Below, one piece after another: positions 32,952 through 63,807 of a DNA stretch of 64,000 nucleotides. The stretch is from Candidatus Zixiibacteriota bacterium (GTDB lineage: Bacteria > Zixibacteria > MSB-5A5 > GN15 > JAAZOE01): contig JAZGGI010000012.1 of NCBI GenBank assembly GCA_036480375.1, positions 1-64,000 on the forward strand. The letters are read 5' to 3'. The notes under the pieces were generated by a model. The model was not told the origin of the DNA and made no database searches. It saw nothing but the letters and a program-made list of their open reading frames with translations. The translations under genes and the position numbers were made by a program. How positions within the stretch are numbered: position 1 is the stretch's first letter; every line of letters starts with the position of its first letter.

Positions 32952-34148
32952 TTAGGCGTCGGTCAGAGCGGCTATTCCGGGTAGAGTTTTGCCTTCCAGA
33001 AATTCGAGCGAAGCCCCTCCCCCGGTCGATATATGCGAAATCCTGTCTTTGACGCCGGCCTTGATAGCCGCCGCCGAAGAGTCGCCTCCCCCGATTATTG
33101 AAACCGCTCCGTTATCGGTCGCCTGCGCCAATTGACCCGCCAATCCTATCGTACCCAACGAAAACTTCTCAACCTCAAAAACACCCATAGGACCGTTCCA
33201 GACGATGGTTTTGGATGACGCGATAATCTCGGAAAACTTCTTCAATGTTTCCGGCCCGATATCGAGTCCTTTCATTCCGGTCGGGATATCATCGACATTG
33301 ACGACCATCACATCGGCATCTTCGGCCAGTTCATCGGCAACGATACAATCGGTGGGAATCACAAAATTGACAGAGCTATTTTTGGCTTTTTCCAGAATGT
33401 TTTTGGCCAGGTCGAGTTTATTTTCTTCGAGGAGCGAATCACCGATTTCTTCGCCCATTGCTTTTAAAAAAGTAAACATCATGCCGCCGCCGATTAATAA
33501 ATTATCGACTTTGTTAAAGAGATTATTGATGACATCTATTTTGCCCGAAATTTTGGCTCCTCCGAGAATAGCGGTAAAGGGCTTTTCCGGTGACGCTAAC
33601 GCTTGCCCCAGATATTTCAATTCCTTTTCAATTAAAAACCCCGCCGCCGCTTTTTCGAAGAATTTGGCAACGCCTTCGGTTGAGGCGTGAGCTCGATGAG
33701 CGGTTCCAAAAGCGTCATTTACATACATATCCGCCAGCGCGGCCAGCTTTTTGGCAAAATCGGAATCATTTTCGGTTTCTTCTTTATGATAACGGAGGTT
33801 TTCCAGCAGGAGACATTGGCCGTCCTGAAGATCGGATGCCTTTTGATCGGCTTCAGTTCCAATACAATCGGATGCGAATTTTACCGGCTTGCCCAAAAGG
33901 TCAGCCAGATGTTCGGCCACGGGACGCAGGCTCATTTCCGGAACGATTTTTCCCCTGGGGCGCCCCAGATGGCTGCACAGGATGACCCGTCCGCTATCGC
34001 CCAAAATTTTCTTTACGGTTGGAAGCGAGGCGACAATTCGGGTATCATCGGTTATTTTTTGATTGGCATCCAGGGGAACATTATAATCGACCCGAACGAG
34101 TACTTTTTTCCCCGAATAGTCTATATCCCTGATTGTCAGCTTATTCAT
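32952..34148 (-). CDS. pgk: phosphoglycerate kinase
   Basis: A 398-residue kinase (1,3-bisphosphoglycerate plus ADP to 3-phosphoglycerate plus ATP). Signature segments are KKVLVRVDYNVPLD, LCSHLGRPRG, LLLENLRYHKEE, FVNDAFGTAHRAHAST-like (here YVNDAFGTAHRAHAS), GGAKISGKI and ISTGGGASLEFLEGK. The start is the ATG at 34148 with GAGGTGG ahead; an in-frame codon at 34163 would add five residues without benefit. A strong hairpin lies between gap and this gene. Confidence 0.96.
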   Translation of the reverse strand: MNKLTIRDIDYSGKKVLVRVDYNVPLDANQKITDDTRIVASLPTVKKILGDSGRVILCSHLGRPRGKIVPEMSLRPVAEHLADLLGKPVKFASDCIGTEADQKASDLQDGQCLLLENLRYHKEETENDSDFAKKLAALADMYVNDAFGTAHRAHASTEGVAKFFEKAAAGFLIEKELKYLGQALASPEKPFTAILGGAKISGKIDVINNLFNKVDNLLIGGGMMFTFLKAMGEEIGDSLLEENKLDLAKNILEKAKNSSVNFVIPTDCIVADELAEDADVMVVNVDDIPTGMKGLDIGPETLKKFSEIIASSKTIVWNGPMGVFEVEKFSLGTIGLAGQLAQATDNGAVSIIGGGDSSAAAIKAGVKDRISHISTGGGASLEFLEGKTLPGIAALTDA

Positions 34149-59285: not shown

Positions 59286-60734
59286 TCATTCGGTATAGCA
59301 AATATCCAGCGTTTTGGTCGCCTTAACCTCATCAAGCCGCCTGACCGGTGTCTCATAGGGAGCCTCTCTTACGATATCCGGATTACTATCAATCTCTTTG
59401 TCGATTTGAAGCATCACATCCGCGAAATAATCCAACGTTTCTTTGGATTCCGTTTCGGTTGGTTCAATCATAATCGCTTCGGGAACGATTAGAGGAAAAT
59501 AAATCGTCGGCGCATGAATACCAAAATCGAGGAGCCGCTTGGCGATATCCCCGGTCCGTACGCCTCGCTTTTTCTGTTTGTTTCCGGACAAAACGAATTC
59601 GTGCTGACAAATACCGTTAAACGGTACTTCAAAAGCCTCTTTCAACCGTTCCTTGAGATAATTAGCGTTGAGAACCGCGTTTTCCGAGACGCGTTTCACT
59701 CCGTTGGGTCCGAGATGCCTTAAATAAGTATATGCCCGAACCATATTGGCGAAATTACCGTAGAACGAATGCATCCTCCCGATGCTTTCAGGGCGATCGT
59801 AATCAAAGAAATATTTACCATCTTTTTCGGCCACGACCGGTTTGGGTAAAAACGGTATCAATTCATCGGTAACAGCCAACGCCCCCGCTCCGGGACCGCC
59901 GCCGCCGTGAGGAGTCGAAAAAGTCTTATGCAGATTGTAATGCACTATATCAAATCCCATATCGGCCGGGCGTGCTTGACCCAACAGAGCGTTTAGATTT
60001 GCCCCATCCATGTAAAGCAACCCGCCGGCATCATGAACGATTTTGGCGATTTTCTCAATTTCCATTTCGAACAATCCCAGCGTATTGGGATTGGTAATCA
60101 TTACCCCCGCCGTTTCCTCATCCATAACCTCGGCGATATGATCGGCGGAGATGGTACCCTTATCCGACGAGGTAAACTGACATACCAGATATCCGGATAA
60201 AATCACCGAAGCCGGATTGGTTCCGTGAGCCGAATCGGGAATCAGAATTTTCTTCCTGACGTCTCCCCGCTTTTTCATCGCCGCCCGAATCAATAGCAAT
60301 CCCATCAATTCACAATGAGCCCCGGCCACAGGTTGAAGCGTAGCCTGATTAAATCCGGTAATCGTCGCCAGCATTTCAGCCAGCTCATACATCAACCGCA
60401 AGGCTCCTTGGCATTCGTCAATCGGTGTCAACGGATGCAATTTGGCAAAGCCATGAAGTCCGGCAATAGCGTCATTGACTTTCGGATTATATTTCATCGT
60501 GCATGAACCCAGGGGATAAAATCCTTTGTCAATGTGATGATTGCGGGTGGATAGTTCTAAATAGTGCCGGACCAATTCCGGTTCCGATATTTCAGGTAAC
60601 GTCGGCGCGTCCTGACGGCGGAATTTCTCGGGTATCAACTGATTTACCGTATCCTCTCCCGATTTCAATTCCGGCAGGGAAAATCCCGATCTACCCGATC
60701 GGGATTTTTCATAAATTAAAATTTCGTCGTTCAT
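59286..60734 (-). CDS. gcvPB: glycine dehydrogenase (decarboxylating) subunit 2
   Basis: A 482-residue C-terminal half of the P protein of the glycine cleavage system. The PLP lysine is in YNLHKTFSTPHGGGGPGAGA. Also LGSCTMKYNPKVND, QPVAGAHCELMGLL, IPDSAHGTNPAS and MIEPTETESKETLD. It works with subunit 1 (62425-63807) in an alpha2beta2 enzyme. It starts 10 bp after the selenoprotein-like gene. Confidence 0.95.
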   Translation of the reverse strand: MNDEILIYEKSRSGRSGFSLPELKSGEDTVNQLIPEKFRRQDAPTLPEISEPELVRHYLELSTRNHHIDKGFYPLGSCTMKYNPKVNDAIAGLHGFAKLHPLTPIDECQGALRLMYELAEMLATITGFNQATLQPVAGAHCELMGLLLIRAAMKKRGDVRKKILIPDSAHGTNPASVILSGYLVCQFTSSDKGTISADHIAEVMDEETAGVMITNPNTLGLFEMEIEKIAKIVHDAGGLLYMDGANLNALLGQARPADMGFDIVHYNLHKTFSTPHGGGGPGAGALAVTDELIPFLPKPVVAEKDGKYFFDYDRPESIGRMHSFYGNFANMVRAYTYLRHLGPNGVKRVSENAVLNANYLKERLKEAFEVPFNGICQHEFVLSGNKQKKRGVRTGDIAKRLLDFGIHAPTIYFPLIVPEAIMIEPTETESKETLDYFADVMLQIDKEIDSNPDIVREAPYETPVRRLDEVKATKTLDICYTE

Positions 60735-60744
60735 ATTGATAGGA

Positions 60745-61707
60745 TCAGCCGCCTTCGGTTTCCTCCGGCGGGTTTTCTATTTCTTTTATTTGTCGTTTAA
60801 CCCAATTGGTATCTTCGGAATCAGGATATTTTTCCAAAAATTCCTTGAACAGGCGCAGAGCTTCATCGTTATCGCCTTTTTTCTTCAGGCTATACGGAAT
60901 ATAAACCTCGGCGTCTTGAATTAAATCCGAGTCGGGGTAATCATTAATAAAAGCCTTAAATGCGGCGATAGCCTCATCGTATTTTTCTGCCCGCGATTTT
61001 GTTGTCGCGATAGAAAATACGGCATCATCTACCATATCAGACTCAGGGTATGTGGTCTGCAATCTCTGAAACGCTTCTTCAGCCGCCGCGTATTGTTTGG
61101 CGCGTCTTTTCATTTTCCCCATATTATATAGAGCGCTGTCGGAATAACCTTCTTTGTTAGTCGGGTCGCTTTGCAATATCTTGCGGTAAAAGGTTTCGGC
61201 GTCGCTATAAGCGCTGCGACCTGTATATTTCTCCGCGATCATATTATATAATTTCATGGTCGGCGCGGTTTCTTTCTGGCGCAAATAATCAGCCAATGTG
61301 TTCTTGTCCATCAAATAATCATTGACAGCCTGAATGAAATCTTCGGGAGGAGCGTATCCCCAGATCCGATCAATCTCGGTCCCATCGGCATTGGCGATAA
61401 TCTCGCTCGGATAGCCGTTGATTCCGTAGTGATTTGACAGAGTTGTATCTTCCCAGCCGTTTATCTTAACGGCAACCAGCCTGGAATTCACCAATTCAAT
61501 AACTTCATCGTTTCGATACGTCACGGTATCGAGTACATGGCACCATGGTCAGTCAATTCGCCAGAAAGATATTAAAACTTTCTTTCCTTGTTCAGTGGCC
61601 GTTTTGAGAGCGGTATCGTAAGAATCGACGAAAGTAACCTCGCTGGCGGCGCTCATTCCGGCAAACGCGAAAAACACCAGAAGCGCAGCCCAAAAAGTTT
61701 TCTTCAT
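60745..61707 (-). CDS. thioredoxin-fold/TPR protein, probable selenoprotein (UPWC motif)
   Basis: The frame from ATG 61707 gives 320 residues if the in-frame TGA at 61549-61551 (codon 53) is read as selenocysteine. Residues 1-21 are a signal peptide. Residues about 22-140 are a thioredoxin fold: KKVLISFWRID-U-PWCHVLDTVTYR, then LVAVKINGWED and GINGYPSEI with the cis-Pro. Relatives have Cys at this spot (CPWC), so TGA replaces the attacking Cys. Residues 160-315 are four tetratricopeptide repeats (DAETFYRKILQSDP, AAEEAFQRLQTTYP, EAIAAFKAFINDYP, EALRLFKEFLEKYP). A hairpin fitting a bacterial SECIS follows the TGA. Without recoding the gene would appear to begin at GTG 61524. The alternative is a nonsense mutation. 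Confidence 0.75.
61513..61532 (-). promoter_or_regulatory. candidate bacterial SECIS hairpin
   Basis: On the - strand TCGATAC-CGTGAC-GTATCGA: a perfect 7-bp stem with a 6-nt loop whose second and third bases are G and U. The stem begins 16 nt and the loop 23 nt after the UGA, inside the coding sequence. As I recall the bacterial SECIS model, the apical loop lies about 16-37 nt after UGA with a G in its first two positions, which fits. Confidence 0.6.
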
Positions 61708-61723
61708 GTTGTCCTCACTTTGT

Positions 61724-62113
61724 TTAGTTTATGTCAATTAATCTTGCTTTTTTCCAATCTTCACCCAGAATTACTTCGCCCTCTTGCATAGCATCTTCAG
61801 CGAATTCATCGGGAACTAAAATAGTAAATCCTCCCCCAACCGGACGATAGGAAGATATACCCATTTGACCGGTGGCGCCGAAATGTCCTGCTCCCGAAAT
61901 CATTACCGCGGGGATGTTTTTTGCCTTAAAACTCCCCATTACTAACTGGGTGAGTTGATCGCTTAGTAATCTAACAAGGGGAATCCAATTATCATACACG
62001 GCCTCATCTTTCTCATCATCACCGGGTAAAGAATCAACCAATTTAGTACCACAATCGGCACACTCGCCGATTCCCCATTCGTATTCATATTTACATTTAG
62101 GACAAAACGGCAT
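61724..62113 (-). CDS. zinc-ribbon plus DUF2007-like protein
   Basis: 129 residues. The N-terminal zinc ribbon is CPKCKYEYEWGIGECADCG. The C-terminal part (WIPLVRLLSDQLTQLVMGSF ... FTILVPDEFAEDAMQ) matches the DUF2007 (putative signal-transducing GlnB-like) pattern also seen in its upstream neighbour. The ATG at 62113 has GAGGGG ahead. It lies 16 bp before the selenoprotein-like gene. Function unknown. Confidence 0.7.
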   Translation of the reverse strand: MPFCPKCKYEYEWGIGECADCGTKLVDSLPGDDEKDEAVYDNWIPLVRLLSDQLTQLVMGSFKAKNIPAVMISGAGHFGATGQMGISSYRPVGGGFTILVPDEFAEDAMQEGEVILGEDWKKARLIDIN

Positions 62114-62117
62114 AAGA

Positions 62118-62441
62118 TTACCCCTCATCCCCCTCAGATTTATCCGGTTTGCTATCAATAAACATCTTCACCAGTTCCAAAGCCTCGGTTTCATGTTCGC
62201 CCGGAACCATAATCTTAAATGTCTCTATCTTGCCAGTATAAAACGATCTCAATTTCAGGCCGGCCGAACCTAATACACCCGGTTTGGTGTCCAATACGGC
62301 GGGTATATCATAAGACTTCAAACCATTTACGGCAAATTCAGCGGTCGTGCGATCGGGCGCTTCAGCCACTACTACCCAATGAGTCCTTTGCCCGATTTCC
62401 TCAGAGAGTTCACCGTTTATTTCGTTATTTTCGAAACCCAT
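62118..62441 (-). CDS. DUF2007-family protein
   Basis: 107 residues: HWVVVAEAPDRTTAEFAVNG, LKSYDIPAVLDTKPG and FKIMVPGEHETEALELV give the beta-alpha-beta layout of DUF2007. The start overlaps the end of gcvPA by 17 bp, so it belongs to the gcv operon. It has no zinc ribbon, unlike the next gene, so the two look like related halves of a small family here. Confidence 0.7.
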   Translation of the reverse strand: MGFENNEINGELSEEIGQRTHWVVVAEAPDRTTAEFAVNGLKSYDIPAVLDTKPGVLGSAGLKLRSFYTGKIETFKIMVPGEHETEALELVKMFIDSKPDKSEGDEG

Positions 62442-63807
62442 CGCTTACTGCAGTCTGCGCAGAATTCTCCTTACTATTTATTTGCGATAATACTTCAACT
62501 AAAGCGTCGCAGTCGTCAAAGCTATTCATTTCTGTAACAGCCAAAAGCAAGTGGTTGTTCATTTCTGAATAAAAGCGGCCTAGATCGATTCCTGCTCCAA
62601 AACCCTTTGCTTTAGCGAATTCAAGTATTTGTACGGCCGCGGTATTCGTTTCCACGACGAATTCCTTGAAAAACGGTCTTTCATCCCAAACCCGATATCC
62701 CTCAAGCTGAGATATTTTATCGGCCAGATAATGAGCCCGCTCGGTAGATATTTGGGCAAGGCGCGGTATGCCGTGTTTACCCATCAAGGACATATAAAAC
62801 GTCGCGGCCGTAGCGCATAAGGCTTCATTGGTACAAATATTGGAAGTCGCCTTATCCCGCCGGATATGCTGTTCTCTCGTTTGGAGAGTCAGGACGAATC
62901 CGGGTTTTCCGTCAACATCCGTTGTCCGAGCGGCCAGTCTCCCCGGAATCTTTCGAACGAATTTTTTGCGGCAGGCAAATAATCCCAGAAGAGGCCCGCC
63001 GAAATTTTGAGGGATTCCCAGCGATTGCCCTTCGCCCACAGCGATGTCGGCGTTATACTCGGCCGGGGTTTTCAATATACCGAGAGAAATCGGATCGAAA
63101 ACATTGATGAATAATCCGCCGGCATCATGTATAGCCCGCTCACCTTGTTCAATATCCTCAAGATATCCGAAAAAATTCGGCTGACCCAAAATTAAACAGG
63201 CGCACTGATCATCTAATAATCCGTTTAATTTGCCGTAATCGGTCGAACCGTTAGCGCGGGGAACGGTGATTATTTGCAAATCTACCCCCTGAATTGATGT
63301 TTTCAGGACATCTCGATATAATGGATTGACCGTTTCAGATATTACGATTTTATTTCGTCGGGTGTGATTGATGGCCAGAAGAGCCGCTTCGGTTACGGCC
63401 GTCGCTCCATCATAGAGCGAGGCGTTGGCGACATCCAAACCGGTTAGGCGGCATATATGGGTCTGGAACTCATAAATAATCTGAAGCGTCCCCTGAGCGA
63501 CTTCGGCCTGATATGGTGTATAAGCGGTTACAAATTCCGGGCGCATCGCCAGCGACCAGACTACCGACGGGGTGAAATGATTATATATTCCTCCCCCGAT
63601 AAAATTGGTCTTGCAGGTGTTATTTTGTCCCGCCAGCTCTTCCAGGAAACGGACAAGCTCCGGTTCGCTAAGCGCCGACGGCAAATTGAGTGGTTTTTTC
63701 AGGCGCAAATTCTCCGGAATCGGGTCGAATAAATCGTCAGTTTTGGAAACCCCGATCCACTCAAGCATAGCTTTTATATCTTCAGGGCTATTGGGTATGT
63801 ATACCAT
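62425..63807 (-). CDS. gcvPA: glycine dehydrogenase (decarboxylating) subunit 1
   Basis: A 460-residue N-terminal half of the P protein: YIPNSPEDIKAMLEWIGV, NTCKTNFIGGGIYNHFTPSVV, TAYTPYQAEVAQGTLQIIYEFQ-type segments, LYDGATAVTEAALLA and GGPLLGLFACRKKFVRKIPGR. It lacks the PLP lysine motif, as expected for subunit 1. It begins seven bases after the gcvH stop. Confidence 0.94.
   Translation of the reverse strand: MVYIPNSPEDIKAMLEWIGVSKTDDLFDPIPENLRLKKPLNLPSALSEPELVRFLEELAGQNNTCKTNFIGGGIYNHFTPSVVWSLAMRPEFVTAYTPYQAEVAQGTLQIIYEFQTHICRLTGLDVANASLYDGATAVTEAALLAINHTRRNKIVISETVNPLYRDVLKTSIQGVDLQIITVPRANGSTDYGKLNGLLDDQCACLILGQPNFFGYLEDIEQGERAIHDAGGLFINVFDPISLGILKTPAEYNADIAVGEGQSLGIPQNFGGPLLGLFACRKKFVRKIPGRLAARTTDVDGKPGFVLTLQTREQHIRRDKATSNICTNEALCATAATFYMSLMGKHGIPRLAQISTERAHYLADKISQLEGYRVWDERPFFKEFVVETNTAAVQILEFAKAKGFGAGIDLGRFYSEMNNHLLLAVTEMNSFDDCDALVEVLSQINSKENSAQTAVSDGFRK

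Follow-up and report, generated by a model that had tools for sequence, protein, structure and literature searches.

A probable exported UxxC selenoprotein combining a thioredoxin fold with TPRs in the glycine-cleavage operon of Zixiibacteriota

We report that a gene situated between gcvPA and gcvPB in a 64,000-nucleotide stretch of Candidatus Zixiibacteriota DNA (hereafter the window) very likely encodes a selenoprotein: a thioredoxin (Trx)-fold protein with a UxxC active site, a C-terminal TPR domain and a predicted export signal. The original prediction, made from the sequence alone, held that an in-frame TGA stands exactly where the first Cys of a CPWC redox motif belongs, preceded by a signal peptide and thioredoxin sequence and followed by the rest of the fold and four TPRs. 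The placement of the TGA was borne out by ORF analysis and by comparison with homologous loci, and the architecture by Pfam and an AlphaFold2 model. The selenoprotein interpretation is thus supported by computational checks, among them every one proposed alongside the prediction; there is no protein-level evidence for the recoding or for the product, and proteomic proof is missing.

The reading frame opens at ATG 61707 and closes at TGA 60747-60745 (Table 1). Its sole in-frame TGA is codon 53, in the surroundings FWRID-U-PWCHVLD. The N-terminus is hydrophobic in 95 of the 101 homologues compared, and 46 of the 101 carry a lipobox-like motif. Pfam assigns Thioredoxin_2 (8.6e-11) and then TPR_6 (3.3e-17). 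In the AlphaFold2 model of the product (mean pLDDT 94.7), Sec53 lies immediately N-terminal of helix 54-63 of a Trx fold, as in thioredoxins, and is followed beyond that fold by helices that can be read as four TPR hairpins with flanking helices. Pro100, which is invariant among the homologues, occupies the thioredoxin cis-Pro position. As had been predicted, a mechanical ORF finder places the gene start at GTG 61524; the protein predicted from this start consequently has neither signal peptide nor redox centre.

Table 1. Positions of the selenoprotein gene, its elements and its operon neighbours in the window.
Feature	Position	Strand	Basis or remark
gcvPA (glycine dehydrogenase subunit 1)	62425..63807	-	ORF and annotation search
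107-aa protein, conserved operon member	62118..62441	-	no Pfam match
144-aa zinc-ribbon-like protein containing two CxxC pairs, conserved in the operon	61724..62158	-	no Pfam match
Shine-Dalgarno-like GAGGA upstream of ATG 61707	61712..61716	-	sequence
Complete selenoprotein gene (very likely), 320 codons and TGA stop	60745..61707	-	ORF and homologues
Predicted signal peptide MKKTFWAALLVFFAFAGMSAA	61645..61707	-	sequence; N-termini of homologues
Thioredoxin-fold domain, approximately residues 26-132	61312..61632	-	Pfam, alignment, AlphaFold2 model, Foldseek
UGA codon, very likely for selenocysteine (Sec53 of the UPWC motif)	61549..61551	-	other homologues have Cys (44) or TGA (53) at the aligned codon
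SECIS-like hairpin UCGAUAC-CGUGAC-GUAUCGA	61513..61532	-	begins 16 nt past the UGA; constraint, covariation in sister family
GTG expected as the start in automatic gene calling	61522..61524	-	inside the hairpin loop, without Shine-Dalgarno
TPR domain (four TPR hairpins with flanking helices), residues 138-311	60775..61296	-	Pfam, model, Foldseek
gcvPB (glycine dehydrogenase subunit 2)	59286..60734	-	conserved neighbour

We searched 146 related genomes, of which 99 supplied 100 further loci; with the window, the comparison set comprised 101 loci from 100 genomes. Contigs searched with a single protein yielded no matches; searches with a family-level alignment did. Where the relatives of the gene are named, they are Candidatus Zixiibacteriota genomes. 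Opposite the in-frame TGA of the window gene, 54 loci have TGA, 44 a Cys codon and 3 a Ser codon, so that the first position of the motif is Sec or Cys in 98 of 101; the second is Cys in 97 of 101. This is the pattern expected of a selenoprotein. Families f1 (that of the window), f4 and f19 each contain Sec and Cys forms side by side. A maximum-likelihood tree, inferred from an alignment in which the site was masked, requires no fewer than 15 changes between Sec and Cys, and its starred branches by themselves force 8 changes for the Sec label. Because these changes recur without loss, we infer that selection acts on the reactive residue. Beyond the phylum, relatives in Ignavibacteria and Bacteroidota carry Cys at the site.

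Some individual loci deserve mention. TGA is also found at the same site (SDGUGGC) outside Zixiibacteriota, in KSB1 bacterium 4572_119 (L195, 2072-2908). The three loci whose first motif position is Ser (L136, L116 and L100, in genomes G094, G102 and G121) are all linked to gcv genes. L136 and L116 have lost both cysteines and retain their location in the gcv operon, from which we infer that the protein can persist without redox chemistry. Genome G094 additionally has an unlinked Sec copy (L130).

A SECIS stem-loop very likely lies just 3' of the UGA, a conclusion that rests on comparison and not on single-sequence energy. In the window's family the hairpin reads as given in Table 1; in the sister family f4 it reads UGGACAC-GGUC-GUGUUC. 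Synonymous constraint along the gene peaks at codons +5 to +12 past the UGA, both in f1 (rank 1 of 306 windows, 0.93 observed versus 0.36 expected) and in the Sec forms of f4 (rank 1 of 249, 0.88 versus 0.33); for the same codons the value in f4 Cys forms is 0.55. Among the 23 Sec forms of f4, every one of the 161 cells is paired. Two of the pairs show compensatory changes, one from G-C to C-G (6 sequences) and the other from C-G to U-A (1 sequence); as a control, shifting the partners by 1-3 bases brought pairing below 48%. Covariation in f1 and f4 was not pooled, since their loops measure 6 and 4 nt and their stems do not line up; within f1 the pairs hardly vary, and support there therefore consists of the synonymous constraint. 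In f4 Cys forms the hairpin is partly kept (80% pairing). It is intact in two Cys forms, from genomes G006 and G050, where it may be the fossil of a recent Sec-to-Cys change. The RNA 3' of the site is more stable in Sec forms than in Cys forms (mean -11.4 versus -9.0 kcal/mol, p = 7e-4). When the 62-nt segment of the window was folded as a single sequence, it was not more stable than its shuffles (z -0.23), and this is why the support for the hairpin is comparative. Rfam gave no match at the locus.

The machinery for selenocysteine insertion is present in the host genome (3.59 Mb, 97% complete), which further supports the interpretation. The genome contains a tRNA-Sec with anticodon UCA (74 bits), selA and selB adjacent to each other on one contig, and selD (L073, G000:C26:126288-127211, minus strand). 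The last has an in-frame TGA (SGAGUASK), from which we infer that SelD is itself a selenoprotein. Selenoprotein forms of SelD occur in other bacteria. Of the 54 genomes carrying a Sec form of the gene, 8 have no tRNA-Sec above the cut-off; five of these 8 have selA and three do not, and the absences probably reflect the draft state of the genomes. Elsewhere in the window, an in-frame TGA at 33133-33135 on the plus strand stands three codons past a Cys (ACAN-U-PAN), with 184 open codons beyond it; we consider it likely to be a chance occurrence.

The genome also encodes another exported Trx-TPR selenoprotein family, with the motif DDUEYC (L205/L211, G000:C42:69678-70868, minus strand). The same codon is TGA in 15 of its 17 homologues and Cys in 2. 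The family has a conserved hairpin, CCGCU-CGUGA-AGCGG, whose CGUGA loop matches the CGUGAC of the window gene, and the protein has no match in NCBIfam.

The claim that the gene lies between gcvPA and gcvPB held and can be refined, in that two small ORFs follow gcvPA. On the minus strand the genes run accC, gcvH, gcvPA, the 107-aa protein, the 144-aa zinc-ribbon-like protein, the selenoprotein, gcvPB and an ABC ATPase, and gcvPB starts 10 nt past the selenoprotein stop. Of the 101 loci compared, 93 have the end of gcvPA at most 1.5 kb upstream and 93 have the start of gcvPB at most 400 nt downstream. Both are found in 89 loci, with several of the exceptions being contig ends, and both are common to 17 family-level groups. 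The occurrence of such a TPR fusion in a gcv operon, as had been proposed, is thus conserved throughout the class. The gap to gcvPB has a median of 19 nt over 93 loci (18 nt for Sec forms and 19.5 nt for the 44 Cys-form loci); because the spacing is the same in the two forms, the linkage is independent of selenium. Loci unlinked to gcv (in f12, f18, f20 and, as L130, f15) have no common neighbours that hint at a function. A search for the glycine reductase protein GrdA found no match in 60 genomes, and the control genomes gave none either, so that the absence carries no weight. The linkage to glycine cleavage is strongly conserved and without explanation.

Several other readings of the locus were weighed. 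The TGA could be a sequencing or assembly error, or a true nonsense mutation that leaves a Cys-type gene truncated or a pseudogene. A single-base change from TGC or TGT to TGA would look identical in one genome, and Cys homologues do exist. This reading is nevertheless all but excluded: the identical codon is TGA in 53 other genomes, which rules out a sequencing error, the frame stays intact past the TGA, and the constraint on the hairpin follows directly after it. Also remote is the possibility that translation really begins at GTG 61524 or another internal codon, giving a cytoplasmic TPR protein with the upstream part untranslated. ORF callers do choose such a start. However, the signal peptide and the Trx N-terminus are conserved in frame in homologues, and it is the ATG that is preceded by GAGGA, whereas the GTG has no Shine-Dalgarno sequence and sits in the loop of the conserved hairpin. 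A change of code, with UGA read genome-wide as Trp or another residue, has in its favour that UGA is the only odd codon. It too can be practically dismissed, since TGA serves as an ordinary stop elsewhere, closing 13 of the window's 41 long open frames as well as the selenoprotein gene itself, tRNA-Sec and selAB are present, and the aligned residue is Cys, rarely Ser and never Trp.

Two further alternatives concern what the selenoprotein does. It might be mainly an envelope TPR scaffold or assembly factor of the YbgF/CpoB/BamD kind, with the redox site secondary. Consistent with this, profile and fold comparisons both liken the TPR domain to YbgF and BamD, and the two homologues without either cysteine remain in the gcv operon. 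We regard the scaffold reading as unlikely, given the near-universal Sec or Cys at the first position and Cys at the second, and the repeated Sec/Cys changes without loss. Still less probable is that selenium-dependent readthrough of the UGA sets the translation of a coupled gcvPB. The short distance to gcvPB speaks for it; against it, the Cys forms, which could not respond in this way, keep the same gap and the same linkage.

Foldseek places YbbN/CnoX, BamD, YbgF and DsbD-gamma nearest among solved folds, the top matches being 3qou and 3qdn. The chaperedoxin CnoX/YbbN (E. coli 3QOU; Caulobacter CnoX) likewise joins an N-terminal Trx domain to C-terminal TPRs, and its family likewise varies between CXXC and SXXC (PMC6282202, PMC8129009). 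CnoX is, however, a cytoplasmic, Cys-containing partner of GroEL/ES, whereas the window protein has an export signal, a UxxC motif and a place in a gcv operon. Structure-based sequence identity between the two is 16-17% and the global TM only about 0.3, indicating that the relative placement of the domains differs, and the NCBIfam matches to the window protein include no CnoX model. By analogy, the window protein may act like a chaperedoxin without being a member of the CnoX family; a holdase activity is inferred. For the Trx part, the closest relatives in NCBIfam and the PDB are the C-terminal (gamma) domain of DsbD, TsoB and DsbH, but scores fall far under the family cut-offs, and the window protein has TPRs instead of a transmembrane domain, no DsbD transmembrane domain being found in it by Pfam. 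YbgF/CpoB and BamD, to which the TPR part is similar, lack a Trx domain and also score under their family cut-offs. That UxxC thioredoxin-like selenoproteins are already known, as originally stated, is confirmed by a recent inventory (PMC13188914), which lists a PF13098 'thiol:disulfide interchange protein' (WP_011366075) sharing the Trx_2 Pfam family and the UxxC motif with the window protein. It is given there by its Pfam domain only, and TPRs in it are not ruled out.

The best overall explanation, which we consider very likely, is a recoded, exported UxxC reductase with client-holding TPRs, its activity, clients and electron donor being inferred. On the computational evidence, SelB and Sec-tRNA decode the UGA as Sec under the direction of the hairpin 16-35 nt downstream. 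The Sec53 selenolate would then attack a disulfide or sulfenic acid of an envelope protein, Cys56 would resolve the mixed selenenylsulfide, and DsbD, whose role as donor is untested, may re-reduce the protein; a DsbD-type gene does occur elsewhere in the genome, separate from the selenoprotein gene. The TPR superhelix is inferred to hold a client or partner, the clients likewise being untested. We can offer no more than a guess that the location in the gcvPA-gcvPB operon is probably kept so that the gene is expressed together with an anaerobic programme for glycine and one-carbon units. A bolder reading would make the protein a selenium-dependent envelope chaperedoxin, ancestral in Zixiibacteriota and functionally tied to glycine cleavage, for example by controlling, at the level of redox state or assembly, a process fed by one-carbon units or reducing power from the glycine cleavage system (GCS). 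We think this unlikely.

No NCBIfam model (June 2026) reaches its cut-off on the window protein, the best selenoprotein model being TsoB at 42.5 bits against a cut-off of 805. The 2026 prokaryotic selenoprotein inventory (PMC13188914) includes UxxC Trx_2 proteins, yet a family with TPRs is absent from it. In the open-access literature, with partial coverage, the terms selenoprotein and Zixibacteria were joined only in a work titled on marine Deltaproteobacteria. We thus probably describe a new, phylum-wide selenoprotein family, with the reservations that the literature coverage was partial and that the full architecture of the listed PF13098 example was unexamined. Gene callers are likely to truncate members of the family, so that database entries probably lack their redox centre and export signal. 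An exported redox protein encoded between two subunits of a cytoplasmic enzyme, for a reason still unexplained, presents a sharp and testable puzzle. The many Sec/Cys changes at one operon position, with hairpins decaying in the Cys forms, amount to a natural experiment on the retention and loss of selenocysteine.
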